A stretch of 64,000 nt of DNA from positions 1 through 64,000 of the forward strand of contig CAIJYV010000021.1 of NCBI GenBank assembly GCA_903825035.1. The letters are read 5' to 3'. The translations under genes and the position numbers were made by a program. Below, piece after piece: positions 1,364-18,410 of this stretch (positions are counted from its first letter, which is position 1; each line of letters begins with the position of its first letter). The DNA comes from an uncultured Actinomycetes bacterium (lineage in GTDB: Bacteria > Actinomycetota > Acidimicrobiia > Acidimicrobiales > RAAP-2). A model generated the notes under the pieces. That model saw only the letters and a program-made list of their open reading frames with translations. It searched no databases and was not told the DNA's origin.

Positions 1364-3535
1364 TTACGCCGTGCTAGTTACGGAGAAGCTAGTCCCTCCG
1401 GCACTCAACGGCCCAGGCGTCGCCAACGGGGTTGCTCCATTCACCATCTGAATGATCTGCAAGGTATAGGCGGTTGCGGGTGCCGAAACGCCATTTACCG
1501 ATGCGGAGATGTTAGTAAAGGTGGTGATTGGAGTTGGCGCCATATTCGCTAGTTGACAGCTCGCCCCAAAACCGGCACCACAAATAAGTGGTCGCTCGAC
1601 TACCCACTCTGCCGAGACTTCTGCCGGGGTCGTCGAAAGGTTCGTCAGGGCAATTGAGAAGCTCCAGTTAGCCGTGGCATCAGTCATAGAGAGTGTCCAA
1701 ACGCCCGCGGAAAAGTCCACGGTAGCCGTGATCTGATCTCCCGGCTGCACCGAATCAGCATTGGGGAGATTAATGGAAGCTCCGCCCGCAATTGAACTAA
1801 TGCCATACATTTCGTACCAAGCGCCGTAGTTGGTTACACCATTGGTGCAAGTAACTACTGTGCCAAGTTGCTCAACGGTCGAAGATCCATAGCCGTCTAT
1901 GCCAACCCATTGTGATGCGTAGGCATTAGCGTGACCGGCACAGTTAGCCGCTGGAACAATCCAGGTTCCAGATACCCCCGTGAAGGTTCGACCCGTTGCC
2001 ACGTAACCTGACCAGTTATTTGAATTCAAAATAGTTTGCAGGGTTACGGTCAAGGTGGCCGCTGCGGTCGTGGCCGTTCCATTGGTATTGGTATAGGTGG
2101 CCTCGTAAACGTAACCACTCATCGAAGTAGTGGGCGTGAAGGTGTAGTTAGCTGTCGTCGCACCAGTAATTGGCGTGAAGGTTACGCCACTATCGGAAGA
2201 CACGCTCCACTGCACGGTGGGCGTTGGTGTTCCGGTAGCCGACGAGTAGAAGGTTACGCTCTTGCCACTTTGCACCATCGTGTCTACCGGACTTGTAGCA
2301 ATTACTGGGTAACTAGATACTGGCGGGATAGTCGTCGTGGTTGTTGTGGTGGTGGAACGCACCGTGGTCGTAGTCGTCGGTGCCGTCGTTGTAGTGGTTG
2401 GGGGTCGAGTAGTCGTTGTGGTCGGCGCTGGGACCGTAGTGGTCGTCGTAGTCGAACGAACAGTAGTGGTAGTAGTTCGAACCGTCGTAGTCGTGGTTGG
2501 AGGTCGCGTAGTCGTAGTGGTCGGCGCTGGGACCGTAGTCGTAGTGGGGCCGCTCGGTGCTGAGACGTGCAGGGTTGCAGGGCTAGAGACTGCTATTCCA
2601 CTCGCGTTGGTGAAAACCGCGCGGTACTTGAACCCATCCAGGCCGATATTGGTGTTGAGCGTAAGCGAAACGGAAGTTCCGCCAGCCACATTTTGAAATG
2701 TCGAACCGCCATCAACCGACGATTGCCACTGAACTGTGGGTTGGGGTCGCCCCGTTGCGGTTGCAACAAAGATGGCGCGTCCGCCAGCAAAAACCGAAAT
2801 ATCACTTGGATTGTGAGTGATGGCGGGAGCCACCGCCGTTGGCGCAGTGCTTTCTTCATCGGAACGATTTACAAACAATTGCGCTGGAAGAGTGGTTGCT
2901 GATCCTGAATCATTTGAAAACACTGCACGGAATAGATATCCCGCCATCGAAGCGACGACCGTAAAACTAAGTTGGCTGGAGGTGCTCGCCGAGGGAACGT
3001 TCTGATACGTGACTCCCCCATCACTTGAGTACTGCCACTGAATTGTCGGTACGGGATTGCCCGAGGCGCTCGCGGAGAATCGAGCCGTTCCACCAACTGC
3101 TGCACTTGCCGAGGTGGGATTGGCCGTCACGGTAGGGGCGAGTGGAGTAGTTGAGCTGACCACTGTCAAGGTGGCGGGGTTAGAGGTGGCGCTTCCGGCG
3201 CTCGAGCGAGCGACCGCCTCAAAGCGATATCCGCTTTGAGCCAAAGTCGCTACAAAGCGAATGCGAGAATCCTCACTCGACACAGCGCGGTAGGTCGCTC
3301 CACCATCAGTTGAGAAAAGCCAAGAAATGCTTGGGCGCGGATTACCCACCGCGCTCGCTGAAAAATTCGCAGTTTGCCCGGCAATCAGTGTTAGTGACTG
3401 TGGTTGTGCGCTGAAAGTAGGCGTGACGGAAGGACCGCTGTTCCCATCATCACGACTACTTGAAGCGCCAGCTCCCCCTGGGGACACGGTGAGGGCAACT
3501 ATCGAGAATAAAAGAGGCAGAAATAGTCGCTTCAC
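1364..3535 (-). CDS. secreted Ig-repeat protein with C-terminal G1 (eqolisin-like) glutamic peptidase domain
   Basis: 723-residue exported protein. A signal peptide (1-25, 'LLFSIVALTV') is followed by three Ig-like repeats of ~88 residues (about 39-125, 134-222, 237-325; each with 'GNPxPTIxWxxSxDGGxTY' and 'YRAVFxNxSG'), a ~80-residue Thr/Pro linker, a fourth Ig-like repeat (about 410-498), and a C-terminal domain from 506. That domain carries hallmarks of peptidase family G1 (eqolisins): 'NWSGY', 'SQWVGIDG' (543-548), 'VEQLGT' with the expected catalytic Gln at 556, 'AWYEMY', and 'AEWVVE' with the expected catalytic Glu at 643. In characterised fungal members this Gln/Glu pair forms an acid-active endopeptidase; activity here is inferred. 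The start is GTG with no clear Shine-Dalgarno. Bacterial G1 members are known but uncommon. The Ig repeats probably act as spacers or adhesion modules. Confidence 0.75.
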   Translation of the reverse strand: MKRLFLPLLFSIVALTVSPGGAGASSSRDDGNSGPSVTPTFSAQPQSLTLIAGQTANFSASAVGNPRPSISWLFSTDGGATYRAVSSEDSRIRFVATLAQSGYRFEAVARSSAGSATSNPATLTVVSSTTPLAPTVTANPTSASAAVGGTARFSASASGNPVPTIQWQYSSDGGVTYQNVPSASTSSQLSFTVVASMAGYLFRAVFSNDSGSATTLPAQLFVNRSDEESTAPTAVAPAITHNPSDISVFAGGRAIFVATATGRPQPTVQWQSSVDGGSTFQNVAGGTSVSLTLNTNIGLDGFKYRAVFTNASGIAVSSPATLHVSAPSGPTTTTVPAPTTTTTRPPTTTTTVRTTTTTVRSTTTTTTVPAPTTTTTRPPTTTTTAPTTTTTVRSTTTTTTTTIPPVSSYPVIATSPVDTMVQSGKSVTFYSSATGTPTPTVQWSVSSDSGVTFTPITGATTANYTFTPTTSMSGYVYEATYTNTNGTATTAAATLTVTLQTILNSNNWSGYVATGRTFTGVSGTWIVPAANCAGHANAYASQWVGIDGYGSSTVEQLGTVVTCTNGVTNYGAWYEMYGISSIAGGASINLPNADSVQPGDQITATVDFSAGVWTLSMTDATANWSFSIALTNLSTTPAEVSAEWVVERPLICGAGFGASCQLANMAPTPITTFTNISASVNGVSAPATAYTLQIIQMVNGATPLATPGPLSAGGTSFSVTSTA
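2312..2560 (-). repeat. Thr/Pro linker encoded by two imperfect ~100-bp tandem units
   Basis: In-frame low-complexity segment inside the Ig/eqolisin gene. Read on the minus strand it encodes two copies of a unit resembling 'VPAPTTTTTRPPTTTTTV' followed by runs of Thr, 'VR' and 'VRS'. The plus strand shows the complementary gtagtsgts pattern, which produces the meaningless poly-Val ORF in the track. It probably forms an extended, potentially glycosylated stalk between the third and fourth Ig-like domains. Such repeats commonly change length by slippage or recombination; that is inference here. Confidence 0.8.
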
Positions 3536-3577: not shown

Positions 3578-6421
3578 CTATTTTTTCAGTACGCCCTGGG
3601 CCTTTTTAATCGCCTGGTTCATCGCGTTTACATACTTCTGGTAGTCCGCCAAATTTCCGCTACTGAGCGCATTTTGAGCGTTCGTGTAGTCCGCGGCCGC
3701 CTCTTGCAAGTATTGACTTGCCGTTTTTCCAGTTCCCGCGTTCGCCCCTCCGCCGGTTGAGACATTTGCTCCCAGCACCTGGGAGAGTGCTCCCGCCAAC
3801 GTTGGTGCAATGGCTACGTCTTGGTTGTAGACGGCCACCACATATCGCAACTGAGGAATTGGATTCACCGAAGCAGTTACGTAGAAAGGCCGAATGTAGA
3901 GCAGGCTCTTGTCAAGCGGAATCATGACGTCGGCGCCGAGTAATACCTGCGAACCGTGTTGGTCATTCAAAGTTATTAGTGACGAGACGGCCGAAGTGTT
4001 GTTGATCTCCGAATCGGCCAGTGCCGGTCCAGTGACCGTGGTTCCACGTGGAGTCACGTACAGGTGAAGTTGTCCGTAGTTTGATGGATCCGATGTTGCA
4101 ATTAAGAATGCAGTCAGTCCCTGGACCTGTGATGCGTTACCAGCTGGCACGTAGGCCAAGGTTTCTGTCAGTTGTTGAACATTTGACCCAGGAAGAGAGG
4201 CGACTTGAACCAAGGGGCTCATTGACGCCAGACCTGTTCCCGAGGAGTTCTGCGCTAGTCCTTGCGTTGCCGAACCAGCCCCCGCTGAGGGTGACAACGT
4301 CCAACGGTCTGCCGCTGAGTAGAAGGCGCGGGCGTTCGTAATGTGATAGCGGCCTAAGAAAGCGGCTTGCACGTTGAACAAGTCAGTGGGGTAACGCAAA
4401 TGCTGGCGAATCGTGGATGGCATTTTGCTCTGGCTGGTGAACATCTTGGGGAACGCCGCTTCGTACGCACGAATAATCGGGTCGGACGGGTCAGTTACGT
4501 AGAACGTCATCTGTCCCGTGTAGGCATCAACGGTTACTCGGACTGATGCTCGTGCGTAGTTATAACTGCTTGGGAGTCCACCTTCTGGCGTGGACAGGGT
4601 GCTCGCATTTTGAGAATTGGGATACTGGTCGGTGGTGGTGTACCCCGTCAACACATAATCCAGCGAACCGTTATTAATTACTGCGTAGGGCTGCGAATCG
4701 AAATTCAAGAACGGTGCAGCCTTGCTCACCATCGCTTGAATATCGCGAGTAAACAACACTCGAGAATTAGCAGTGATCTGACTCGAGATTAAAAAGTTGA
4801 AGTCGCCCAAACGAAGTGCCAGCGCGGCGCGTGACAAGAAGCTGCCAACCTTCACTCCGCCCTTTGCGCCATAGTGAGTCTCGACCTGCTGTCCAGCATT
4901 CGCACCGGAATTCACTTGATAGTCAAGTTCGGCTTGTTTGGTGTTCGCCACTACCCAGCCCGGATCTTTAATACCGAAGTAAATCCCCGCTTGGCGAAGT
5001 ACTGCCATCGAAGGTACCGAAACGGGGGGTACATTGCCGACGGCCCAGACGGGGTTGCCGGTCACTGAGTTCGCTTGATTCGCTTCGAGAACGGCCACGC
5101 CAGCTCCGTGAGTGAATTGCAGGTGCTGGTTTACCCAACTTTGGCTAGGCAAATTTGCCGCGTTCAGCTGCCGAGCTCCAATAAGAACGGGCGTTACCTT
5201 GCCGTCGATCATGTATCGATCGATCCCCATCGAGGTAAATGTGTAGTACGAGCGGATGGCCTGACGGCGCTTGGTCGTTGCGAGCGAGATTTGTGGACTG
5301 GGATCCCAGAGGCGAATGTTGTTGATCGTTGGTTGGGCGGCGGCTAATTGCGACGGCGTAATTTTGGTTGCGCCGGGGAAAGTCTGGCTGCTCACTCCGG
5401 TGATGCCATAAGCGGTGCGCGTCGCAGCAATGTTTCGCTCAATCGAGACGGTCTCGAGCGAGGCCTGATTTGGACTCACCTTTACTGCTTGGAGAATTGA
5501 TGGGTAGGCGACGCCAATGACAAGGGCCACGAAGGCCCACAGCCCCACCGCCACAACGGGCAAAGACCATCCACGTCGGCGGACGTTGGCCAAAAGGATA
5601 AGGGCTGAGCCGATTGATAGGTAGAACAAAATCGTGAGCGCAGGAATTCGTGCGTGGATGTCGGTGTAGCCCGCTCCTTGAACGTAGCCATTGGTCGACG
5701 CAACCAAATGCCATTTAGCAAGAAGGTATCCAACGGCCTTCATAAAAGCAATGGCGGCACCAATTAAAGAGAGGTGCACCTTGACAGACGAAGAGACAAC
5801 GGGCCAGCTTTTGGTGGAACGAATTCCTCCGTTCAAAAGGTGGAAGACGGCGCTAACGAGCAAAGTCACGAACAGGGCAATTAAGACCCAGGTGACGACA
5901 AAACTCAGAAAGGGCAGCGTAAAGACGTAAAAACCAATGTTCTTGTGAAAGACCGGATCGACATTGGCAAAGTGTTGCGGGTGCAAAAAGAGCGCCAAAT
6001 TCTTCCATTGGCTTTGCGCGTTTAAGCCCGCTAGAAAACCCAAGACGAGCGCAATTGCGCCGTAGATTCTCTTTACGTACGGGGTCACGAAGTTTTGGTA
6101 GCGACGAGTCATCTCGTCTTCGGGTTCAAAGGACAGATTTTTCGCTCGTAAACGATGCGTCAGCATTAAGTTTCCGAAGATGAGCCCAGCGAAGGCTCCC
6201 CCAAACACGACAATCAGACCCAACTTGTAGGTAAACAACGTTGTGAAAATTGAACCAAATCCGCCCTGCGAGAACCACATTTGGTCGGTCCAAAACACTG
6301 CCACCGTCTTCAACGAGGCAAAGAGGACGAAGAGAAGGGCTAGGCCTAGCCCAAACCATGCCCTACGGGAGAAGCGGCCGAGTCGGCGAGGAGCAGAAGA
6401 CATATCAGTTGGTGAACGCAC
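3578..6421 (-). CDS. UPF0182 family large membrane protein
   Basis: 947-residue protein of the UPF0182/COG1615 family. The N-terminal third has about seven membrane segments (for example 'AWFGLGLALLFVLFASLKTVAVFW', 'LGLIVVFGGAFAGLIFGNLML', 'IYGAIALVLGFLAGL', 'FVVTWVLIALFVTLLVSAVFHLL'). A long extracytoplasmic domain follows, with conserved 'IRLWDPSPQ', 'YYTFTSMGIDRYMIDG' and 'SDPIIRAYEAAFP'. A lysine-rich helical tail ('AAADYTNAQNALSSGNLADYQKYVNAMNQAIKKA') resembles the C-terminal segment of actinobacterial members. The biochemical function is unknown. The GTG at 6421 and the ATG at 6403 are both possible starts; neither has a strong ribosome site. It is the last gene of a co-directional cluster with MreB-like, PDZ-Lon and DivIVA-like genes (23-bp gap). 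In mycobacteria a UPF0182 gene also neighbours PDZ-Lon and DUF2342 genes. Confidence 0.9.
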   Translation of the reverse strand: MRSPTDMSSAPRRLGRFSRRAWFGLGLALLFVLFASLKTVAVFWTDQMWFSQGGFGSIFTTLFTYKLGLIVVFGGAFAGLIFGNLMLTHRLRAKNLSFEPEDEMTRRYQNFVTPYVKRIYGAIALVLGFLAGLNAQSQWKNLALFLHPQHFANVDPVFHKNIGFYVFTLPFLSFVVTWVLIALFVTLLVSAVFHLLNGGIRSTKSWPVVSSSVKVHLSLIGAAIAFMKAVGYLLAKWHLVASTNGYVQGAGYTDIHARIPALTILFYLSIGSALILLANVRRRGWSLPVVAVGLWAFVALVIGVAYPSILQAVKVSPNQASLETVSIERNIAATRTAYGITGVSSQTFPGATKITPSQLAAAQPTINNIRLWDPSPQISLATTKRRQAIRSYYTFTSMGIDRYMIDGKVTPVLIGARQLNAANLPSQSWVNQHLQFTHGAGVAVLEANQANSVTGNPVWAVGNVPPVSVPSMAVLRQAGIYFGIKDPGWVVANTKQAELDYQVNSGANAGQQVETHYGAKGGVKVGSFLSRAALALRLGDFNFLISSQITANSRVLFTRDIQAMVSKAAPFLNFDSQPYAVINNGSLDYVLTGYTTTDQYPNSQNASTLSTPEGGLPSSYNYARASVRVTVDAYTGQMTFYVTDPSDPIIRAYEAAFPKMFTSQSKMPSTIRQHLRYPTDLFNVQAAFLGRYHITNARAFYSAADRWTLSPSAGAGSATQGLAQNSSGTGLASMSPLVQVASLPGSNVQQLTETLAYVPAGNASQVQGLTAFLIATSDPSNYGQLHLYVTPRGTTVTGPALADSEINNTSAVSSLITLNDQHGSQVLLGADVMIPLDKSLLYIRPFYVTASVNPIPQLRYVVAVYNQDVAIAPTLAGALSQVLGANVSTGGGANAGTGKTASQYLQEAAADYTNAQNALSSGNLADYQKYVNAMNQAIKKAQGVLKK

Positions 6422-6444: not shown

Positions 6445-8163
6445 CTACGGCAATACCAAGCAGGCGCAGCCAGCGTGAACTGGGGGGAATGCCGAACCCG
6501 ATGGGAATGGCTGCCCCGCTCGCACGGTACCATGGGCCTCGTTATTTGAGCAGTCATCACACGGTGCGTCACTGGGGGCAACGAGGAATCGGAGGTCTCT
6601 CGATTGAGATCCCGCCACAATTCCAGCGTTAAAGGCCCGACGTGAGGCGTCGGCGCAGAGTCTTTCGACCCGGGCTCCTCGCCATTCCTTGTACACGGTA
6701 TTGGCACGCTCGGCCCCATCGCCGGCCGATTCGGACAGTAGCCGCTTGCGCAGAGCCACCACGATCGTTACGGCGAGGTCGGTGGCGCATTCTTGGATGA
6801 CCACTGAACTGGTGATCCCGTCACCAATGCCGGTTTCATCCAGGACAAATTGAAGGCCACCTTGTGCGGCTTCGAACAGCGCTTCGTAGGCGGCATCAGC
6901 GTATCGAGCACGTTGGAGTCGCTCATCTTCGAGCTCGTCGACGATCATCCCTTGAACATCGCGCAACCGGTCGAGCATTACATTCTGATCATCTTGGAGC
7001 GCCCGCTTAACTTTTCGCGTCAACATGGTTAAAGAGGGCTCGAGCGCGGCGTCTCGTCGCACAAAGAGTTCTTCGGTGTCGGTAGTCGGCGCAGCGCGTT
7101 CAACGATTCGCTTGGCTACGACCGCCGTTGCCCCACGTTCTTCGAGGGTGGCTTGGCGCAGGCGCGAGAAAATGTCATTCACGACATCCGCATCAATGAC
7201 TTCGCCCTCATCGATAAATTGCTCGCTTCCGCCAAGCGACGGAGCGGGAGCGGCCGGCGGAACAGCATCCGCACCGACTTCAACAGCCCTGCGGGCACGA
7301 ACCTTGGGGGTGCCTTGCGTTGGGGGATCCGCCAGGTCTTGCTCTGGGCTGGACGAATCGAGACTGTCAGGTCGTGACGGTTGCAAGGTCGCGTTAGCGA
7401 GAGCTTCTTCTTCGGTGAGATCGGGAATTGGAATTGCACGACGCAAGGCCTCGAGGGCGGCGATTTTGGCTGCCTCATCTGAGCCTTGAATGTTGCCGAG
7501 CACACCATCCATCTGCTCACGCACGCCAAGGATGAAGGTGGCAATTGTGTCTCGTGCTGTTCTCAGTTGTTCGATTTGCATATGCAGCGCCTTGCGCTTC
7601 ACCGCCATGTCATTAAGCACTTGACGTCGAGCCTCTTTACCTAATTCAACAATCGACCGAGCTTGCTCTTGGGCGTGGGCGATTAATGCTTCGCCATTGA
7701 GTTTGCCTGAAGCCACGAGACGTTCAGCTGCTTCACGAGCATCACGCTCGAGTGCGTGGGCTGTATTTTCGGCCTCGGAGACAATCATTGACGCTCGTTC
7801 TTGAGCCTCAATGAGTTGATCAGAACTGCGTTGTTGGGCCTCGGAGAGAACTCGACCCGCCTCTTCGTGGGCGTTGCGCAAAATCTCTGCGGTCTTGCCA
7901 CCAATTCGCTCTACGAGCTCGGCTTCGGTGAGCTCTTCTGGTTTGACCGGTACCGGCAGAGGCGTTGGTTGGCGAAGGGCGTTAGCGAGTTGATCTTCGA
8001 GGTCACGGACCTGTGCTTCGTAGCGCTGCATCTCCTTAGCGACGCTTTCGAGGTGCAGTCGCACCTCATTGGGGTCTACCCCGCCACGGCGAATGGGCGT
8101 GAAGGTCATCCGAGAGACATCGGAAAATCCGCGTCTTCCTTGGGGTCCGCGCCGTTCATCCAT
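6445..8163 (-). CDS. DivIVA-like coiled-coil protein with phage MuF/minor-head-like C-terminal zinc-ribbon-type domain
   Basis: 572 residues. Residues ~19-65 resemble the DivIVA membrane/pole-targeting start ('FTPIRRGGVDPNEVRLHLESVAKEMQRYEAQVRDLEDQLA'). A long Ala/Glu/Arg-rich coiled coil follows (~75-225), then an acidic Pro-rich linker (~250-320), a second helical region (~330-480), and a C-terminal region unlike DivIVA: 'EWRGARVERLCADASRRAFNAG' then 'FLVAPSDAPCDDC' and 'FPPVHAGCACLVLP'. The spaced C535xxC538 and H563xxC566xC568 plus the preceding 'R..A..A.N.G' helix match the ending of phage Mu F / SPP1 gp7-type minor head proteins, where they form a metal-binding knuckle. The role is unknown; polar or septal envelope organisation is inferred from the N-terminus. 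ATG at 8163 is preceded by AGG; M19 (8109) is an alternative. It lies 26 bp downstream of the PDZ-Lon gene. Confidence 0.7.
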   Translation of the reverse strand: MDERRGPQGRRGFSDVSRMTFTPIRRGGVDPNEVRLHLESVAKEMQRYEAQVRDLEDQLANALRQPTPLPVPVKPEELTEAELVERIGGKTAEILRNAHEEAGRVLSEAQQRSSDQLIEAQERASMIVSEAENTAHALERDAREAAERLVASGKLNGEALIAHAQEQARSIVELGKEARRQVLNDMAVKRKALHMQIEQLRTARDTIATFILGVREQMDGVLGNIQGSDEAAKIAALEALRRAIPIPDLTEEEALANATLQPSRPDSLDSSSPEQDLADPPTQGTPKVRARRAVEVGADAVPPAAPAPSLGGSEQFIDEGEVIDADVVNDIFSRLRQATLEERGATAVVAKRIVERAAPTTDTEELFVRRDAALEPSLTMLTRKVKRALQDDQNVMLDRLRDVQGMIVDELEDERLQRARYADAAYEALFEAAQGGLQFVLDETGIGDGITSSVVIQECATDLAVTIVVALRKRLLSESAGDGAERANTVYKEWRGARVERLCADASRRAFNAGIVAGSQSRDLRFLVAPSDAPCDDCSNNEAHGTVRAGQPFPSGSAFPPVHAGCACLVLP

Positions 8164-8189: not shown

Positions 8190-9320
8190 CTAATTTTTAG
8201 CCGAAACGGGTTTAGTTAGCGGTTGAATTGGGCTGCCCCCAATATGGCGCAGTACCGCGAGGGCCTGTTGCAGGGTGTCGACACCAATGATTTGGAGCCC
8301 TGGTCCAGCATTGGCCCGGGCCACCGAGACCTCAATCTTCGGAACAATGAAGTATTTGGCGTTCGTGCGCGATACCGCCACCGTCTTTTCGGCAACACCC
8401 CCCACGTCGCCCACATTTCCGTACAGGTCCATGGTGCCGGTCACGGCAATTGGCACGTGTCCGGTGAGCGAGGCGCCGTTCAATTTGTCGATCAAACTCA
8501 AGGTCATCGCCAGTCCCGCCGACGGGCCTCCGATGTACTTGGTATCAATCGTGAACTTGGCGGGAAGGGATGAATAAATGCCATCTTCGGAGCTGACTCC
8601 GATGTATGACTTTCGAGATACCACCGCGCCCCCACAGCTGTCCTTACTTTGATTCTTCGCGACACCCGCCGAGGTGAGGCGAACCACCGAAGCGGCCTGC
8701 CACGTTAGAACACCAGTTGTAGAAATTTTGACCTTCTTGACCTCCGCTGAAATTAGCGTCTTCGCCGGAAGTTTGGCAACTGCTAACAACAGGTCGCACG
8801 AGTTCTTAATGGGGGTCGAGTTAATGCGAACAACTTCGTCGCCCACGTGTAATCCGGCCTTAGCGGCTGGTGAGTTATTGAATACGCCGGTGATGATCGA
8901 GCCACTGGGGCGTAAGGGGATCTTCCACCCCATCGCCCGAAGGGCCGAAACCTCTGCCGCTTGTTTGGCGTCCTGCATTTGCAAGAAGCCTTGCGCCTCT
9001 AATTGATTCACCGAGATGCCCGGCTGGACTAGCTCATTGATCGTTACGAACTCCTGATGGGACTGGAACTGACTCACCAACCAGCCCCAGGCCGAGAGCT
9101 GGCTTAAGTACACGTCGACGAGCATGATGTGATCAGGGTGCTGATTGGTTTGGAGGGCATCAACTTTGATAAGCGGCGGGACGTTCGTCGCCGTACCGGG
9201 AGTGATCACGTAGGTCGAGAGCTGCCAGCGCGATAGTCCAAAAATCACCGCGAGCACCACAAAAACGATGACGAGTGGTCGTTGAAAATGAAACTTCGGT
9301 TTTATGATTTCTATTGCCAC
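8190..9320 (-). CDS. PDZ domain-containing Lon-like (S16) serine protease
   Basis: 376-residue membrane-anchored protease of the YlbL type. One N-terminal membrane helix ('LVIVFVVLAVIFGLSRW', ~17-33) anchors it with the rest outside. A PDZ domain occupies ~135-190 ('GSIITGVFNNSPAAKAGLHVGDEVVRINSTPI'). A C-terminal Lon protease fold carries the dyad: Ser in 'YIGGPSAGLAMTL' and Lys in 'GGVAEKTVAVSRTNAKYFIVP'. No AAA+ domain is present, as is normal for this family. GTG at 9320 starts 2 bp after the stop of the MreB-like gene, so co-translation is likely. In Mycobacterium the homologous gene also lies between a UPF0182 gene and a divergent DUF2342 gene. The substrate is unknown. Confidence 0.88.
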   Translation of the reverse strand: MAIEIIKPKFHFQRPLVIVFVVLAVIFGLSRWQLSTYVITPGTATNVPPLIKVDALQTNQHPDHIMLVDVYLSQLSAWGWLVSQFQSHQEFVTINELVQPGISVNQLEAQGFLQMQDAKQAAEVSALRAMGWKIPLRPSGSIITGVFNNSPAAKAGLHVGDEVVRINSTPIKNSCDLLLAVAKLPAKTLISAEVKKVKISTTGVLTWQAASVVRLTSAGVAKNQSKDSCGGAVVSRKSYIGVSSEDGIYSSLPAKFTIDTKYIGGPSAGLAMTLSLIDKLNGASLTGHVPIAVTGTMDLYGNVGDVGGVAEKTVAVSRTNAKYFIVPKIEVSVARANAGPGLQIIGVDTLQQALAVLRHIGGSPIQPLTKPVSAKN

Positions 9321-9322
9321 TA

Positions 9323-10324
9323 CTAATCCCTTCCGCGAAAAAGTGTGTGCAGTTGGCCCATTTGCTCCAAGCAGAGCTGCAGTCCACGCATAATGACAAG
9401 GTCCGGACTCTCAGCCACCGTAGTCTTCACTCCGGTCTGTCCGGCGAGGTACTCGCCCACTTGTTTCATGCCCGCAACGCCACCGATCAAGGAAACGCCG
9501 AGGTTGGCGACATCTTGAGAGAGATCTGGTGGCGTAATGCGGAAGCACTCCTGCATCATCTCCGCATTGGCCTTCATCACCGACATCACCGAGGCGTTCA
9601 CCAAGCTGGCGTCAACTTCAATTTCCACTGGCGAGCCGGTCTCCACCGATCGGCCGGGTACAACCTCGCGTTTGCCATTAGTAGCGCCGAGGACCGAGGC
9701 CAAGTTGTACTTGAGCGCCTCAATAATTGCCGGAGAAACCACAACGCCAAACTGATGGCGAATGGCGTCGGCGATTGTGCGATTGATATCTTCGCCACCT
9801 AAGCGACGCGAGTCCATGGTGACGATGCCACCCAAGGAGATGATGGCGATTTCCGAAGCTCCGCCACCAATCACACTGACGGCATTCCCGAGAGGCTCTT
9901 GGATTGGGAGGTCTAGTCCGATTGCTCCCGCCAGTGGCGCCTCGATCAAGCTCACCTCTCGCGCGCCAGCCTGCACCGCTGCTTGGCGAAGGGCACGACG
10001 CTCAATTGGCGTAGCCAACGTCGGAATGCTCATCACGACTCGGGTGCGAGATACCTTAGAGAGCCCCGCTCGGTGAAACAGCCCAAAGAGCATTCGCGCG
10101 GTGACGTCGAAGTCGATGGTGGCGCCCTGGGACAAGGGTCGGTACACAATGACTGGTCGAGGGGACCGACCTACGAGCTCCAGCGCGTTGGCGCCAACGC
10201 TCAATACCGTGCCTTCGTTGGTGTCAATAGCCACCAGTGTGGGCTCGTCGAAAATAATGCCTTGCGAGGAGGTGGCCAGTCGGGTGCGCGACGTACCGAT
10301 ATCAATTGCTACGTCTAGAGCCAT
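9323..10324 (-). CDS. MreB-like actin-fold protein with altered ATPase motifs
   Basis: 333 residues, co-linear with MreB over its whole length. The phosphate-1 motif is recognisable ('DIGTSRTRLATS', D8-G10-T11), as is the following MreB-like block 'IPTLATPIERRALRQAAVQAGAREVSLIE'. Three signatures are changed: the usual IEEP reads IEAP (127-130), the phosphate-2 'DIGGGTTE' reads 'VIGGGASE' with Val151 replacing Asp, and the adenosine-binding 'LTGGGALL' region reads 'LIGGVAGM'. It is therefore probably a paralogue with weak or no ATP hydrolysis, perhaps a scaffold. No mreC/mreD/rodA lies next to it; instead it heads the PDZ-Lon, DivIVA-like, UPF0182 gene string. Start ATG at 10324. Divergent from the DUF2342-family gene. 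Confidence 0.8.
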   Translation of the reverse strand: MALDVAIDIGTSRTRLATSSQGIIFDEPTLVAIDTNEGTVLSVGANALELVGRSPRPVIVYRPLSQGATIDFDVTARMLFGLFHRAGLSKVSRTRVVMSIPTLATPIERRALRQAAVQAGAREVSLIEAPLAGAIGLDLPIQEPLGNAVSVIGGGASEIAIISLGGIVTMDSRRLGGEDINRTIADAIRHQFGVVVSPAIIEALKYNLASVLGATNGKREVVPGRSVETGSPVEIEVDASLVNASVMSVMKANAEMMQECFRITPPDLSQDVANLGVSLIGGVAGMKQVGEYLAGQTGVKTTVAESPDLVIMRGLQLCLEQMGQLHTLFRGRD

Positions 10325-11860: not shown

Positions 11861-12688
11861 ATGACAACGAACCTCTTCGAATGCGTCATCAATATCTCAG
11901 AAGGTCGAAACCACGACCTCCTGGTTTCACTTGATGCTCATGCGGGAGCCAGCCTTCGCGATCGACACAGCGACCACTTCCACAATCGCAGCGTTTTCAC
12001 ACTCATAAATACCGCCGAATCCCTAATTCAAGATGTTTCGAGTCTTTTGCACTGTGCGTATAAGAACCTTGACTTAATTGGCCACGAGGGAGTGCACCCT
12101 CGGTTTGGCGTCGTCGATGTGGTGCCCTTCGTGGCCCTCGAAAGCGAGCAGCATGAGCAGGCCACTGAGCTTCGAAACATCGTGGCGAAGGAGGTTGCAT
12201 ACTCCGAAGACATCAGCATCTTCTTCTATGGACCTCTTCAAAATGGAGGGTTTCGGACCCTGCCTGAAGTAAGAAAAAGGGCTTTTAAGGGCCTGGTTCC
12301 CGATTTGGGACCATCAACACCTAGCCCACACAAAGGCGCATCGGCCTTTGGCTCGCGGCCCATTCTGGTGGCATGGAATCTTTGGGTCGGGGGAATTTCT
12401 CTAGATAAGGGCAAGGAAATCGCCAAGGGGATCCGCGATCCTTTCGTGCGGACACTCGCTTTCCAAGTAGGCGACCAAGTGCAGATCAGCTGTAACTTAC
12501 TATCCCCCGTCTCTGTAACCCCTGAAAAGATCTACTGGGCAGTGAGTGATTTACTTCCAGATGAGGCCCAAATTGATCGGGCAGAACTCGTTGGCCTTGC
12601 GCCCCAAGAAATGTTGGAGGCGATTCCTGTCGAGAAATGGAAAATGCTGGGACTAAGTCCCAGCACCACCATTGAATCTCGCTTGTAA
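11861..12688 (+). CDS. glutamate formimidoyltransferase
   Basis: 275 residues covering the formiminotransferase domain only; no cyclodeaminase domain follows. It would transfer the formimino group of N-formimino-glutamate to tetrahydrofolate in the cytoplasm. Diagnostic motifs are 'FECVINISEGR' at the N-terminus and 'IGHEGVHPRFGVVDVVPF' (~74-91), which contains the catalytic His region of the family, plus 'GPSTPSPHKGASAFGSRP'. An AAGG ribosome site precedes the ATG. It lies near, but convergent with, the hut operon, so the organism may have two routes from formiminoglutamate (this enzyme and HutG). The symbol is left blank because the bifunctional FtcD architecture is absent. Confidence 0.85.
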   Translation: MTTNLFECVINISEGRNHDLLVSLDAHAGASLRDRHSDHFHNRSVFTLINTAESLIQDVSSLLHCAYKNLDLIGHEGVHPRFGVVDVVPFVALESEQHEQATELRNIVAKEVAYSEDISIFFYGPLQNGGFRTLPEVRKRAFKGLVPDLGPSTPSPHKGASAFGSRPILVAWNLWVGGISLDKGKEIAKGIRDPFVRTLAFQVGDQVQISCNLLSPVSVTPEKIYWAVSDLLPDEAQIDRAELVGLAPQEMLEAIPVEKWKMLGLSPSTTIESRL

Positions 12689-12696
12689 GCGTTAAA

Positions 12697-12972
12697 TCAG
12701 CTCGCTTGAGCGCGCCGTTCAATCGCCCGAGCCCGACGTAGACGTCGGCGCTCACGCTCACTCATACCGCCCCAAATGCCAAACTTTTCGCCATTCTCCA
12801 AGGCGTACTCGAGGCAATTGTCTCGGACGACGCAGCCGCGGCACACTTCTTTCGCCTCGCGGGTGGAAGCACCACGCTCGGGGAAGAAAAGGTCCGGGTC
12901 GACGCCCATGCAGTTTGCTTTGGCTTGCCAGCCACGATCCTCGTCACCAGTCAATAACTGTGCGATTTCCAT
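12697..12972 (-). CDS. WhiB-family iron-sulfur transcriptional regulator
   Basis: 91 residues from ATG at 12972 (MEIAQLLTG), chosen because GGAGGG sits six bases upstream; the track's 102-aa start is longer. Four cysteines in the WhiB arrangement ('ANCMG', then 'VCRGCVVRDNC') would hold a [4Fe-4S] cluster. The 'GIWGGMSERERRRLRRARAIERR' turn and basic tail are the family signature for partner sigma-factor and DNA contact. The length and motif resemble WhiB1/WhiB2-type members; which one cannot be decided. A perfect 22-bp palindrome and a plausible promoter lie just upstream. It is convergent with the formiminotransferase gene (8-bp gap). Confidence 0.93.
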   Translation of the reverse strand: MEIAQLLTGDEDRGWQAKANCMGVDPDLFFPERGASTREAKEVCRGCVVRDNCLEYALENGEKFGIWGGMSERERRRLRRARAIERRAQAS

Positions 12973-13002
12973 GTTGTTCCCTCCAAAACGGTAGCTCCGC
13001 AC

Positions 13003-13024
13003 CACCGTTGTAATTACAACGGTG
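13003..13024. promoter_or_regulatory. perfect 22-bp palindromic operator candidate upstream of whiB
   Basis: CACCGTTGTAATTACAACGGTG is an uninterrupted 22-bp perfect palindrome, ending 31 bases before the whiB start codon and located 3 bases downstream of the candidate -10. A homodimeric repressor site overlapping the transcription start is the natural reading. The sequence does not match Fur, LexA or CRP consensus boxes as I know them. The regulator is unidentified. Confidence 0.6.
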
Positions 13025-13027
13025 TCA

Positions 13028-13055
13028 TTGTTATCGTTTTTGCCAGAAAATGCAA
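13028..13055 (-). promoter_or_regulatory. candidate whiB promoter
   Basis: Read on the minus strand, TTGCAT (13055-13050), a 16-bp spacer, then TAACAA (13033-13028). These match sigma-70-type hexamers moderately. The transcription start would fall at the edge of, or within, the 22-bp palindrome. The surrounding 13025-13133 stretch is AT-rich and otherwise empty. Confidence 0.4.
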
Positions 13056-13133
13056 ATCGTAGATAAAATACCTGGTCAGGGTGTATTTAGCAAACCATCG
13101 CATTTCCGAATTTGTTGTGATTACTGGGTATTT

Positions 13134-14315
13134 CTAGCCCCAAAAACCGGGGGTTTTCCCGCCAATATGGACAGCTCGAACCAAGCTTGCTCCAGGTTGG
13201 TAGGCAAAGTGCGCTGCCTTGGAAACCGAGAGTATTGCGAGGTCGGCTTTGGCGCCCAGGCGAAGGTGACCAATATCGGGTCGTCGAAGGGCTTTGGCCC
13301 CACCCATGGTGGCGGCGTAAAGGGCTTCATCAACGCTCAGGCCCATCTCTCGCACCGCCAAGGCAATGATCAGGCCCATATTGGTTACGTAACTTGTCCC
13401 CGGGTTGCAGTCGGTGGCGAGCGCCACCGTTACGCCGGCGTCTAGGAGGTGGCGACCCGACGGATACTCAGACTTAGTAGAGAATTCGGCCCCAGGCAGC
13501 AACGTCGCCACCGTATTTGATCCCGCCAGCGCCTCAACATCCAAGTCGCTCACGTGCGTGCAGTGATCCACGCTAGCTGCGTCCAATTCCACCGCCAACT
13601 CAATTCCCCCAGTATGCCCCAGTTGGTTGCCGTGCAGGCGCAGCGAAAGCCCCCTTTCGCTAGCCCGGCTCAAGATGAGTCGGGCCTCGTCAACGCTGAA
13701 CGCACCTTGGTCGCAAAACACATCCGCCCATCGAACAAGCGGAGCGCAACGGTCCAGCATTTCGCCCGCCACCAGTGCCACGTAGTCATCCCGACGATTC
13801 TTAAATTCGATAGGCACGACGTGGGCCCCTAAAAAAGTGGTCTCTTCGGTAAAGTCACCCGCTATCTCACAGAGGCGAACCTCACCCTCGAGCGTGAGGT
13901 CGTACCCCGACTTCATCTCAACGGTGGTGACTCCATGAGCTCGCAGCGCGTCCAGTCGAGATTGGGTGCATTCCCTTAACTCCGTGGCACTCGCCGACCG
14001 AGTGGCGTTCACCGTAGTGGCAATACCGCCACCGTCGTAGCGTTCGCCGGCCATTCGAGCGGCGAATTCTTCGCTACGCTCCCCCGCGAACACGAGATGG
14101 GTGTGAGAGTCGACAAACCCCGGAATAATCGCGGAGCCTTCAACATCAATTTCGGAATCGGCCGCCGGGGCATTGGCCGACGAACCAGTCCAAACAATTT
14201 TGCCATCTTCGATTACCAAGGCGGCACCTTTGATCCGGCCCATTACCGATTCGTCACCGACCGTTGGATCGTTCGTCGTCAATTCACCGATGTTAGAAAA
14301 GACGAGAGAGGTCAT
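13134..14315 (-). CDS. hutI: imidazolonepropionase
   Basis: 393 residues, the usual size. Amidohydrolase that opens 4-imidazolone-5-propanoate to N-formimino-L-glutamate, the third step of histidine degradation. Metal-binding and substrate motifs are present: 'GFVDSHTHLVFAGERSEEF' (~68-86), 'THLGAH'-like 'TFLGAHVVP', 'RLHGNQLGHTGG', 'VDHCTHV' and 'ATDCNPGTSY'. It is the last gene of hutG-hutH-hutU-hutI; its ATG lies 2 bp after the hutU stop, so it is translationally linked. Confidence 0.95.
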   Translation of the reverse strand: MTSLVFSNIGELTTNDPTVGDESVMGRIKGAALVIEDGKIVWTGSSANAPAADSEIDVEGSAIIPGFVDSHTHLVFAGERSEEFAARMAGERYDGGGIATTVNATRSASATELRECTQSRLDALRAHGVTTVEMKSGYDLTLEGEVRLCEIAGDFTEETTFLGAHVVPIEFKNRRDDYVALVAGEMLDRCAPLVRWADVFCDQGAFSVDEARLILSRASERGLSLRLHGNQLGHTGGIELAVELDAASVDHCTHVSDLDVEALAGSNTVATLLPGAEFSTKSEYPSGRHLLDAGVTVALATDCNPGTSYVTNMGLIIALAVREMGLSVDEALYAATMGGAKALRRPDIGHLRLGAKADLAILSVSKAAHFAYQPGASLVRAVHIGGKTPGFWG

Positions 14316-14317
14316 GA

Positions 14318-15973
14318 TTAGTGCTCGCGCATTGGGATGCGCACACCTCGCTCTTCGGCCGCTTGTTCGGCGATTTCATATCCTGCGTCAACGTGACGAA
14401 TGACACCCATACCGGGGTCATTGGTTAACACTCGTTGAATCTTCTGGCGTGCGAGGTCGGTTCCGTCGGCGACCGTTACCTGACCAGCGTGAATTGAACG
14501 ACCGATCCCCACTCCACCACCGTGGTGGATTGAGACCCACGAAGCACCGGAGGAGATGTTAATCATCGCGTTCAAAAGCGGCCAGTCGGCAATCGCGTCT
14601 GAACCATCGAGCATTGATTCTGTCTCGCGATAGGGCGAGGCTACCGAACCAGAGTCCAAATGGTCACGGCCAATCACAATCGGGGCCGACACCTCACCGC
14701 TAGCGACGAGGTCGTTGAAAGCCACACCGGCCTTGTCTCGCTCGCCATAACCCAGCCAGCAAATACGGGCGGGCAAACCTTCGAATGCGACCTTATCCTG
14801 CGCCTTAGTAATCCAGCGGTGCAGCTTCTCGTTGTCGGGGAAAAGTTCGAGCACAGCTTGGTCGGTGCGATAGATGTCCTTGGGGTCGCCCGAGAGAGCC
14901 ACCCAGCGGAACGGACCCTTACCTTCACAGAACAGGGGGCGGATATAGGCGGGAACGAATCCGGGGAAATTGAACGCACGCTCGTAGCCGCCAAGCTGCG
15001 CTTCAGAGCGAATTGAGTTTCCGTAGTCAAAGACTTCGGCTCCGGCGTCTTGGAATTCGACCATGGCTTTAACGTGCTTCGCCATTGATTCGCGGGCCCG
15101 GTCGGTGAACTCTTCGGGCTTTTTCTCCGCGTACTCCTGCCAATCACTCAAGTCGATACCTTCGGGGAGGTAGCTCAAGGGGTCGTGAGCCGAGGTCTGG
15201 TCGGTCACGATGTCGATATCGACGCCACGACGTAATAATTCGGGGAAGATGTAGGCCGCATTGCCCAGTACCCCGACGCTCAGGGCGGCACCTGTCTTCT
15301 TGGCGCTCAATACTCGCTCGATGGCGTCGTCGAGATCTGCGGTCCACTCGTCTAGGTACCGGTGATCAACGCGACGCTGTAACCGAGCGGGGTCAACATC
15401 CACACACAAGCAGACGCCATCATTCATCGTTACGGCCAAGGGTTGTGCCCCACCCATGCCACCAGCTCCCGCGGTCAGCGTGAGGGTGTGCTTTAAGGTG
15501 CCACCGAACTTCTTTTCAGCAACCGCCGCGAAGGTCTCGTAGGTTCCTTGCAAGATTCCCTGAGTTCCGATGTAAATCCATGACCCCGCGGTCATCTGCC
15601 CATACATCGTGAGGCCCATCTGCTCTAGGCGACGGAATTCGGGCCAGGTCGCCCAATCGCCCACCAAGTTGGAGTTGGCAATTAGTACTCGGGGCGCCCA
15701 CTCGTGCGTTTGGAAAACGCCAACGGGCTTACCCGATTGGACGAGCATTGTCTCGTCCGCCTTCAAGGAAGTGAGCGTGCGCACCAGCGCATCGAAGCTA
15801 CGCCAGTCTCGGGCGGCACGACCAGTGCCCCCGTAGACCACGAGGTCGTCGGGGCGTTCAGCTACTTCGGGGTCGAGGTTGTTTTGCAACATCCGCAGGG
15901 CGGCCTCTTGGGGCCAGCCCTGAGCGGTAATGCTCGTTCCTCGTGGGGCTCGTACGGGACGTGCACCTTCCAT
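14318..15973 (-). CDS. hutU: urocanate hydratase
   Basis: 551 residues, full length. NAD+-dependent conversion of urocanate to imidazolone propionate. Clear motifs: '[15 protein letters not shown]', '[14 protein letters not shown]' (NAD-binding), '[14 protein letters not shown]' with the conserved Cys, and '[25 protein letters not shown]'. A very strong GGGAGGAAATT ribosome site precedes the ATG. It sits between hutH (11-bp gap) and hutI. Confidence 0.97.
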
Positions 15974-15984
15974 AATTTCCTCCC

Positions 15985-17514
15985 TTATTTCAATTCAAGA
16001 AATGATTCAGCCAGGTCCAAGACCTCGCCACTGCGAACTGCGTTGGCAACCGCTTCCATCTCGGGTGACAAGAATCGGTCGTGTCCGGGTCCACCGGTAA
16101 GACCATTAACAAAGTCAGCCACCGCTTGGGTGGCCGGTGAGCCAACGAGTGGGGCGCGCAGGGCGAGGGCGCGAGCCCCCGCCAAGAGTTCGATGGCAAT
16201 CACGTCGCTCAAGGCAGTAACGGACTTACGCAACTTTCGAGCCGCGTGCCAGCCCATGGAAACGTGGTCCTCTTGCATTCCCGACGACGGAATCGAATCA
16301 ACAGAAGCGGGAACGGCCAAACGCTTCATCTCTGACACGAGTGCGGCTTGCGCGTACTGGGCAATCATGAGACCCGAGTCAACACCGGCCTGATGAGCCA
16401 AGAAGGGCGGCAGACCGAAGTTTCGATCCTTGTCGAGCATTCGGTCAGTGCGGCGTTCAGCAATTGAGGCGGCGTCCGCGAGGGAGATGGCGAGAAAGTC
16501 GAGGACCGCCGCCACTGGCGCTCCGTGGAAATTTCCGTTCGAAACCAGCGTGCCATCAGCCAAAACCGACGGGTTGTCAATTGCCGAAGCTAACTCAACC
16601 GCCGCCACCGACCGCGCGTAAGCGGCCGTATCACGAGCGGTGCCGTGGACTTGTGGTGCACAACGTAGCGAATAGGCATCCTGTACTTGGGTGGTGTCGT
16701 CACTGTGGGAGGCAACAATTGGAGAATCCTGCATCAGCGCAAACAAATTCCCCGCGCTCGCCTCCTGGCCGACGTGAGGGCGAAGAGCGTGGATATCCGA
16801 GGCGAAGACTCGATCGGTTCCCCGAAGGGCCTGAATTGATAAGGCGGCGGAGATGTCCAGGGTCTTCAACAACATTTCAATATCTTCGAGAGCCATAATC
16901 AGCATGCCGAGCATGCCATCGGTTCCATTGATCAGAGCCAAGCCCTCTTTTTCTGCGAGCTCGACGGGACTCAGTCCAGCTTGTTCGAGGCCACGGGCTG
17001 CGGGCACCTTCTCACCAGTCGACGTACGGACCCACCCCTCACCCATCAGGGCCAAGGCGACGTGTGCGAGTGGTGCGAGGTCTCCGGAACACCCGAGTGA
17101 GCCAAATTCATGAACAACGGGAGTGATTCTCTTGTTCAAAAGTGCGGCGTAGGCTTCGGCGGTAGCAACTCGAACACCCGAAACGCCACTACACAGATTT
17201 GTCAGTCGCGACATCATGAGCGCCCGCACAACTTCAGTTTCAACCTCGGGTCCAATACCAGCGGCGTGGGAACGAATGAGCGAACGTTGGAGGTCACGGC
17301 GTTGATCGGGCGAGATGAAGGTAGTCGCCAGTGAACCGAAACCGGTGGAAAGTCCGTACACCGGTGTGCCACTTTGAACCATGGCGTCAATGGCCTCTCG
17401 TTGCTTGGCCAATCGAGCCAACACCTCAGCACTCAAGGTCACCTCTTCATAATGACGAGCCACCCGAATTAATTCGGCTCCGGTTAATGGCCGTAGGCCA
17501 ATCTCTACACTCAT
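15985..17514 (-). CDS. hutH: histidine ammonia-lyase
   Basis: 509 residues. Deaminates histidine to urocanate using the self-formed MIO cofactor. '[15 protein letters not shown]' near residue 54 contains the conserved Tyr loop. The cofactor triad lies in '[24 protein letters not shown]' and reads Cys-Ser-Gly rather than the common Ala-Ser-Gly; to my knowledge the family pattern permits this substitution. '[14 protein letters not shown]' and 'GNFHGAP' are also present. ATG overlaps the hutG stop by 4 bp and is preceded by AAGGAG. Confidence 0.96.
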
Positions 17515-18410
17515 GGAACTCTCCTTAAAACACCGGCGTAGGCTTCGAGCACTAACAGGGCCGCCAAACGCACCGTATTTTCATTTATGTCGCGATCGAT
17601 ATCAATCTCAGTGATGTCTAACGTATCGACTCGTGGGTCCGAGGCGATTACTCGAGCAAACTGGCGGACTTCGTCCGGGGTAAGCCCACCGGGAGCGGCC
17701 GCTGGGCAGCCTGGTACAAAGGCTCGGTCGATAACGTCAACGTCGATGTCACAATGGATTATGCGCCCGTCGGCGCCCGCGATATCCAGAGCTCGCTTCG
17801 CCGCATCAACTATTGAGAGTGAGCGCAGCTGCGCGCGAGTAATAACCGTGCCGCCCGCTTCGCGCGCGGCCGCGGCGTACTGTGCGGAATTGGAAAAATC
17901 AGCCAGTCCGATTTGGACAATATGGCGAGGGTCTAGCCCCTCTTCGATTAATTGGCGAACGGGCGAGCCGTTACTTCGCCCTTCACGCATATCTAAATGA
18001 GCGTCCAAGGTGATCAGTCCAACATTCGAATAATCGCCACCCGAGCGGGCCTTCAGAGCGTGCCAGGTCACTGCGTTATCGCCACCGAGGACAATTCGAA
18101 GTTTCGCGTTGTCTGCTCTGGCTAAGTGGGTTCGGAGCGCGGCCGAAGAAACTTCATCAGCATTCTCAACATTTCCGAGGTCCCAGATTCCACCACGGTG
18201 TTCAAGATCGGTGGCGTCTTCGTAGGACCAGGTTGAGTACCTGTTCAGTGCCTCGCGGATGGCGTTGGGCGTTGACTGGGCCGAGCGGTGCGTTACCGAA
18301 GTGGTGTGGGTATGGAGACCTAAGAGCGCCACCGGCGCTTCTGGGAATTCCCCCAGCAGGGAGGCCGCGGGAGGCCAGTTCACATCACCAGTTCGAGACA
18401 TCCTGCCCAT
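17511..18410 (-). CDS. hutG: formimidoylglutamase-like ureohydrolase (arginase family)
   Basis: 299 residues of the arginase/agmatinase fold. Two-manganese motifs are 'ITLDAHLDMREG', 'CDIDVDVIDRAFVPGCPAAAPGG' and 'LDITEIDIDRD'. The first motif reads 'GGDNAVTWH' where arginases have GGDH, so one metal ligand is Asn here. In the hut context the expected reaction is hydrolysis of formiminoglutamate to glutamate and formamide, but agmatinase-like substrates cannot be excluded from sequence. It is the first gene of the hut operon and overlaps hutH by 4 bp. ATG at 18410 is used; ATG at 18401 is possible. Confidence 0.8.
   Translation of the reverse strand: MGRMSRTGDVNWPPAASLLGEFPEAPVALLGLHTHTTSVTHRSAQSTPNAIREALNRYSTWSYEDATDLEHRGGIWDLGNVENADEVSSAALRTHLARADNAKLRIVLGGDNAVTWHALKARSGGDYSNVGLITLDAHLDMREGRSNGSPVRQLIEEGLDPRHIVQIGLADFSNSAQYAAAAREAGGTVITRAQLRSLSIVDAAKRALDIAGADGRIIHCDIDVDVIDRAFVPGCPAAAPGGLTPDEVRQFARVIASDPRVDTLDITEIDIDRDINENTVRLAALLVLEAYAGVLRRVP

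Follow-up and report, generated by a model that had tools for sequence, protein, structure and literature searches.

The gene at positions 6445–8163 of the window (the whole stretch of 64,000 nucleotides that was analysed) raises the question of how a protein built like a bacterial cell-pole scaffold came to end in what looks like a component of a phage head, and what that component may be doing there. A preliminary description of the sequence had proposed a DivIVA-like coiled coil ending in a metal knuckle of the kind seen in MuF minor-head proteins, and had interpreted this combination as the domestication of a virion module by a host cell-envelope protein. The features of the gene and of its immediate neighbours are listed here with the evidence for each.

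6445–8163 (−): DivIVA-MuF fusion protein, 572 aa (ORF with an ATG start; orthologues in 40 of 41 genomes searched and elsewhere)
7978–8121 (−): DivIVA-like N-terminal domain, residues 15–62 (Pfam DivIVA, 1.4e-5; family-profile matches)
7444–7926 (−): long helix and predicted coiled coil, residues 80–240 (full-length AlphaFold2 model; Wag31 model match)
7138–7188 (−): conserved short linker motif DVVNDIFSRLRQATLEE, residues 326–342 (motif count and modelled short helix)
6448–7068 (−): MuF-like module of long helices plus metal knuckle, residues 366–572 (phrog_2662, hhalign, AlphaFold2 and BFVD)
6460–6561 (−): metal knuckle C535-x2-C538...H563-x2-C566-x-C568, given by the C-terminal end ...APCDDCSNNEAHGTVRAGQPFPSGSAFPPVHAGCACLVLP of the protein (invariant in the genus; ligand-relocation variants)
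3578–6421 (−): UPF0182 membrane protein, immediate downstream neighbour (Pfam UPF0182, 4e-234)
8190–9320 (−): PDZ-Lon (SepM-like) protease, immediate upstream neighbour (Lon_C, 9e-10, and PDZ; SepM_fam_S16, 4.5e-27)
9323–10324 (−): first gene of the run, a divergent MreB paralogue (Pfam MreB, 4e-81)

The likeness of the N-terminus to DivIVA is far more than chance would produce. Residues 15–62 matched Pfam DivIVA with 25.5 bits, against a curated cut-off of 28, and the score was 30.4 bits when the N-terminal domain was scanned with its neighbours in frame; NCBIfam Wag31 matched the protein with an E-value of 4e-11, the best stretch being residues 63–202, which correspond to the coil. An N-terminal profile of the wider family matched the solved structures of DivIVA (2wuj, 1e-14) and Wag31 (6lfa, 7e-8), and also GpsB. 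A DivIVA-like domain is expected to carry the motif RGYDxxEVD before a coiled coil, and the family meets this expectation, with a canonical RGYDRDEV-type motif in distant members and a degenerate copy (RGGVDPNEV) in the window protein. A separate DivIVA of 267 aa is encoded elsewhere in the same genome. The full-length AlphaFold2 model of the fusion (mean pLDDT 72.8, pTM 0.41) places the N-terminal domain, a helix of approximately 160 residues (80–240), a disordered linker (approximately 242–323), a short helix (325–342), and the C-terminal module in that order. The Pfam and NCBIfam matches and the modelled helix at 80–240 therefore bear out the DivIVA-like coiled coil of the preliminary description. 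Of 112 family members, 91 carry an [LIV][FL]xx[LIMV]R-type motif in the linker region, no more than 150 residues ahead of the module, where shuffling predicts 2.8; in the window protein, the motif coincides with the modelled short helix.

The CxxC...HxxCxC knuckle that had been ascribed to the MuF type is present in the ORF, and the ascription was supported by a profile–profile comparison in hhalign, in which the host module matched ten phage MuF proteins with a probability of 99.5 and an E-value of 2.2e-22 over 159 columns. The region originally singled out (residues ~480–572) is indeed MuF-like, but its extent had been underestimated: these residues are only the end of a module of approximately 207 aa, which begins near residue 366 and whose isolated AlphaFold2 model had a mean pLDDT of 87.9 and a pTM of 0.86. 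The whole helical module was captured, not the knuckle alone. The ten phage proteins came from a search with a knuckle-derived pattern, which introduces some circularity into the profile match where the knuckle is concerned, and the helical part was therefore compared by itself. Without the knuckle, hhalign gave a probability of 80.6 and an E-value of 1.3e-5 over 146 columns, whereas six column-shuffled versions gave 0.0–0.3; this helix-only comparison is weaker evidence than the full-module match. The portal-protein family phrog_2662 (C-terminal end) was matched by 17 of 18 diverse host modules, with a best E-value of 7.7e-14 and one of 2.4e-8 for the window module; one distant family member matched it at 1.8e-14 over 169 residues, and further head-morphogenesis families also matched. 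With E-values up to 1, PF04233 was matched by 8 of the 18 host modules (best 3.5e-5); its gathering cut-off of 29.6 bits was not reached by the five host C-termini scored (10.6–23.6 bits). When viral contigs were scanned with the host alignment, 13 loci were found that proved on reading to encode MuF or portal-MuF proteins, and all 10 of the viral-contig proteins used for the phage comparison alignment matched PF04233. A tblastn search of phages with one host C-terminus gave weak matches only. In the opposite direction, the sole match of the phage-MuF profile in the whole genome was the fusion gene (E 4.4e-12).

Comparison of the predicted fold with phage head families, which the preliminary description had put forward as a check, gave a MuF-like result: a Foldseek search of BFVD, which holds predicted viral structures, returned 44 matches with E < 0.001 (best E 4.1e-7, TMq up to 0.70). 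Among the top 50 matches listed, those with names were phage head-morphogenesis, MuF/minor-capsid, portal, capsid-maturation-protease, or uncharacterised proteins; 22 of these 50 had no name, and the comparison is of model with model only. No solved structure resembling the module was found, whether by sequence or by the fold of the modelled host module. A chance similarity restricted to the knuckle was rejected on the basis of the helix-only hhalign comparison with its shuffles and of the fold search. Comparison of sequence and structure thus shows the C-terminal module to be homologous, in our judgement almost certainly, to the MuF minor-head proteins of tailed phages over approximately 160–200 residues, Cys/His knuckle included.

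Loss of the C-terminal Cys and His residues from orthologues would have counted against the MuF assignment, and this was not the general pattern. All five knuckle ligand residues were invariant in the 29 sequences of the genus. Across three classes, 118 sequences were counted; 96 of them have the full C-xn-C plus HxxCxC arrangement, and two of the other 22 are artefacts (L072, a truncated duplicate of the locus studied here, and L069, a broken assembly). HxxCxC alone was kept in 8, and the knuckle was degenerate or absent in 12, six with the His replaced and six without a knuckle but with the helices. In four of the 8 that keep HxxCxC alone (L125, L126, L127, and L137), the second Cys was lost and a new Cys occurred in a neighbouring loop, which suggests, without metal-binding data, that a metal ligand may have been relocated. 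The zinc-knuckle ligands (four Cys, one His) are conserved, with one Cys relocated in these four members, and metal binding itself is only inferred. At the same kind of locus, L111–L114, L184, and L186 have no knuckle and retain the helices, and L182 is without most or all of the module; the knuckle is secondarily lost or degraded in some lineages. Such members, without a knuckle or even without the greater part of the module, indicate that the metal site is dispensable in some cases.

The fusion gene lies in a run of genes, all on the (−) strand with short gaps, in the order MreB paralogue, PDZ-Lon protease, DivIVA-MuF, and UPF0182. The UPF0182 protein has seven hydrophobic segments at 21–301. 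The PDZ-Lon protease also precedes the fusion in loci of the same class and was not detected upstream of it in loci of the other two classes. A canonical MreB is encoded elsewhere in the genome (G000:C34; 483 bits, against 272 bits for the paralogue in the gene run). The paralogue also matched phrog_22570, of unknown function, at 7.5e-34, so some phages carry a relative. The other neighbouring proteins scanned have metabolic or secreted-protein domains, as expected of host genes. A histidine-degradation cluster lies at 11861–18410 (formiminotransferase-like protein, amidohydrolase, urocanase, aromatic amino acid lyase, and arginase family), and a protein with fn3 and OmpA domains is encoded at 88–1326 (−). 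The earlier impression that no phage genes are nearby holds for the scanned neighbours as host genes, with one reservation: downstream, at 1364–3535 (−), lies a gene whose product combines a peptidase A4 domain with Ig-like repeats, and these repeats match phrog_25852, a structural profile of phage virions, at 8.7e-18. The fusion thus has UPF0182, PDZ-Lon, MreB, and other host genes as its neighbours, not the portal and terminase of a packaging module. Because single sequences fall below the PF04233 cut-off and this packaging context is missing, the fusion was not placed among the phage MuF minor-head proteins; it is instead a protein of the host that carries a MuF-derived module.

The same fusion, which the preliminary description had suggested looking for in other genomes, proved to be common in its order and to extend into two further classes. 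Matches to the fusion were obtained in 40 of the 41 genomes searched, its own included, and the module was present in 227 of 298 sampled genomes of the order, in 63 of 397 genomes of a phylum sample, and in 11 of 41 and 6 of 19 genomes of a second and a third class of the phylum. The named matches were metagenome-assembled genomes labelled uncultured actinobacterium, Acidimicrobiales, Acidimicrobiaceae, Actinomycetes, or Actinomycetota, with one exception labelled Acidobacteriota. This exception (L024, from a MAG titled Acidobacteriota, REEB101) has a full-length locus, 52% identical, and is probably a mislabelled record. At all 35 loci checked, UPF0182 was the next gene downstream of the fusion and had the same orientation; module distances tracked UPF0182 distances (Mantel r 0.79, p 0.001). 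Several other genomes of the phylum have PDZ-Lon and UPF0182 together and no fusion detected between them; in the absence of an outgroup tree, this is no more than consistent with insertion of the fusion into an older pair. The host modules are under purifying selection: against two close relatives, dN/dS was approximately 0.02–0.04 in the helical module and 0.08–0.11 in the knuckle, values that are rough because dS is near saturation (approximately 1.6–2.7) except in the DivIVA segment. A tree built from 67 host and 56 phage domains placed the host sequences together on one side of a branch with an SH-aLRT of 95; this tree rests on only 119 columns, and its root is not known.

These results show that three classes of Actinomycetota share the fusion as a chromosomal gene of long standing, with its place upstream of UPF0182 preserved. 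A prophage remnant was rejected as an explanation in view of the absence of any other PF04233 or MuF match in the genome, the host neighbours, and the order-wide synteny. A single old capture by the host is very probable, and we infer that a phage MuF gene was taken up once by a DivIVA-type gene. MuF is widespread in tailed phages (PMC5576092), and this wide spread set against the narrow host distribution favours transfer from phage to host, an inference made without a rooted tree. The proposed domestication of a virion module is accordingly upheld by class-wide conservation, the fixed UPF0182 synteny, the host neighbours, and the single host group standing apart from 56 phage sequences. The accompanying claim that the host protein belongs to the cell envelope agrees with the DivIVA part and the gene neighbours, but localisation data are lacking.

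Taken together, we read the fusion as a host cell-envelope scaffold bearing a domesticated phage module, and to this reading, with its inferred client docking, we assign a probability of roughly 0.6. In such a protein, the DivIVA part would anchor dimers or oligomers on curved membrane at the pole or septum, and the MuF module would be kept on the cytoplasmic side, where, stabilised by metal, it would dock and recruit a client. The model for this recruitment is the docking of SPP1 gp7 to the portal ring, a role given to gp7 in PMC6316719. The most likely client would be the adjoining seven-helix UPF0182 protein, possibly joined by the divergent MreB paralogue in Acidimicrobiia. In favour of this client stand the fixed synteny with UPF0182 and the acidity of the host modules, which speaks against DNA as the partner. 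Rv3193c of M. tuberculosis is a UPF0182 member. Rv3193c is listed with seven transmembrane helices and was among the Tn-seq hits of an rv0954 mutant, together with pbpA, rodA, and perM (PMC8093794), which ties a UPF0182 member to division. Docking of the module onto UPF0182 or another operon product remains tentative, since there is no direct evidence and no experiment on any member. It is likewise no more than a plausible conjecture that the virion MuF, captured once, now serves as docking arm in an envelope or division complex, so far uncharacterised, which includes UPF0182 and, in Acidimicrobiia, also PDZ-Lon and the second MreB. UPF0182 was present in 82 of 120 genomes of the phylum, mostly without an adjoining fusion, so that UPF0182 does not need the fusion, and conserved adjacency does not prove contact.

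Other explanations of the module have to be weighed against docking. Its main role may be structural, as a cap or a self-association domain that helps the DivIVA lattice to form without any specific client, as would suit the persistence of the helices where the knuckle is lost (L111–L114, L184, and L186) and the dimeric coiled coils that DivIVA-family proteins form (PMC9858780); the fixed UPF0182 synteny and the strongly conserved first helix of the module (KRALQDDQN...) suggest a specific surface instead, and we regard a mere cap as unlikely, though the most serious of the competing possibilities. Tethering of DNA to the membrane scaffold, which would make the module a direct nucleoid anchor, takes its support from SPP1 gp7, termed DNA-binding and portal-targeted in the study cited as reference 84 of PMC6316719. 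The host modules tested were acidic in all 18 cases, however (net −2 to −12, pI approximately 4.9–6.2), which makes tethering less likely, and we consider it improbable.

Virion parts are used as dominant negatives in phage satellites. A module derived from a phage head component could by the same logic serve as an anti-phage decoy that competes for the portal and poisons head assembly of infecting phages, but one origin, inheritance in step with UPF0182, purifying selection, and host neighbours are all unlike a defence gene, and the decoy has only a slim chance of being correct. Slimmer still is the prospect that the MuF similarity is convergence, with an unrelated helical domain acquiring a zinc knuckle by chance: single sequences stay under the Pfam cut-off and no similar solved structure was found in our searches, but the profile, helix-only, and fold tests agree on MuF.

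The envelope scaffold with a domesticated phage module thus remains our preferred reading, and a virus building block seems now to be part of the bacterial cell-envelope machinery. If the module does act as a docking arm, such recruitment of a domesticated phage head protein into cell morphogenesis would be new. No published report of a DivIVA-MuF family and no paper naming both was found, in a search that left out most subscription journals; this lack of a match leaves room for a report of the family elsewhere. The MuF domain is still described as having no known function (PMC5576092), and a conserved, chromosomal, cellular MuF module offers a tractable protein for learning what the fold does. 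UPF0182 is a widespread membrane protein that has yet to be characterised; the fusion gene links it to a DivIVA scaffold and thereby provides testable partners.

Among known systems, MuF polymorphic toxins resemble the fusion in holding a MuF domain within a multidomain protein; in phages and prophages, that domain stands before a C-terminal toxin (PMC5576092, PMC3482391), whereas in the fusion, in which no toxin domain was found, MuF is the last domain and the gene is chromosomal and adjoins UPF0182. With the phage MuF proteins (PF04233 Phage_Mu_F; SPP1 gp7, Mu gpF, and the portal-MuF fusions of phrog_2662), the fusion has a homologous helical module, a MuF-like fold, and the knuckle C-xn-C...PPxHxGCxC in common. 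Unlike phage MuF genes, it has no portal, terminase, or capsid gene nearby, its module sits behind a DivIVA scaffold, and it is a vertically kept host gene whose sequences group by themselves and score below the curated PF04233 cut-off. Like the DivIVA, Wag31, GpsB, FilP, and Scy proteins (PF05103; PMC9858780), the fusion begins with an N-terminal motif followed by a long predicted coiled coil; it differs from them in having, in addition, a long disordered linker together with the [LIV][FL]xx[LIMV]R-type motif and the MuF module.
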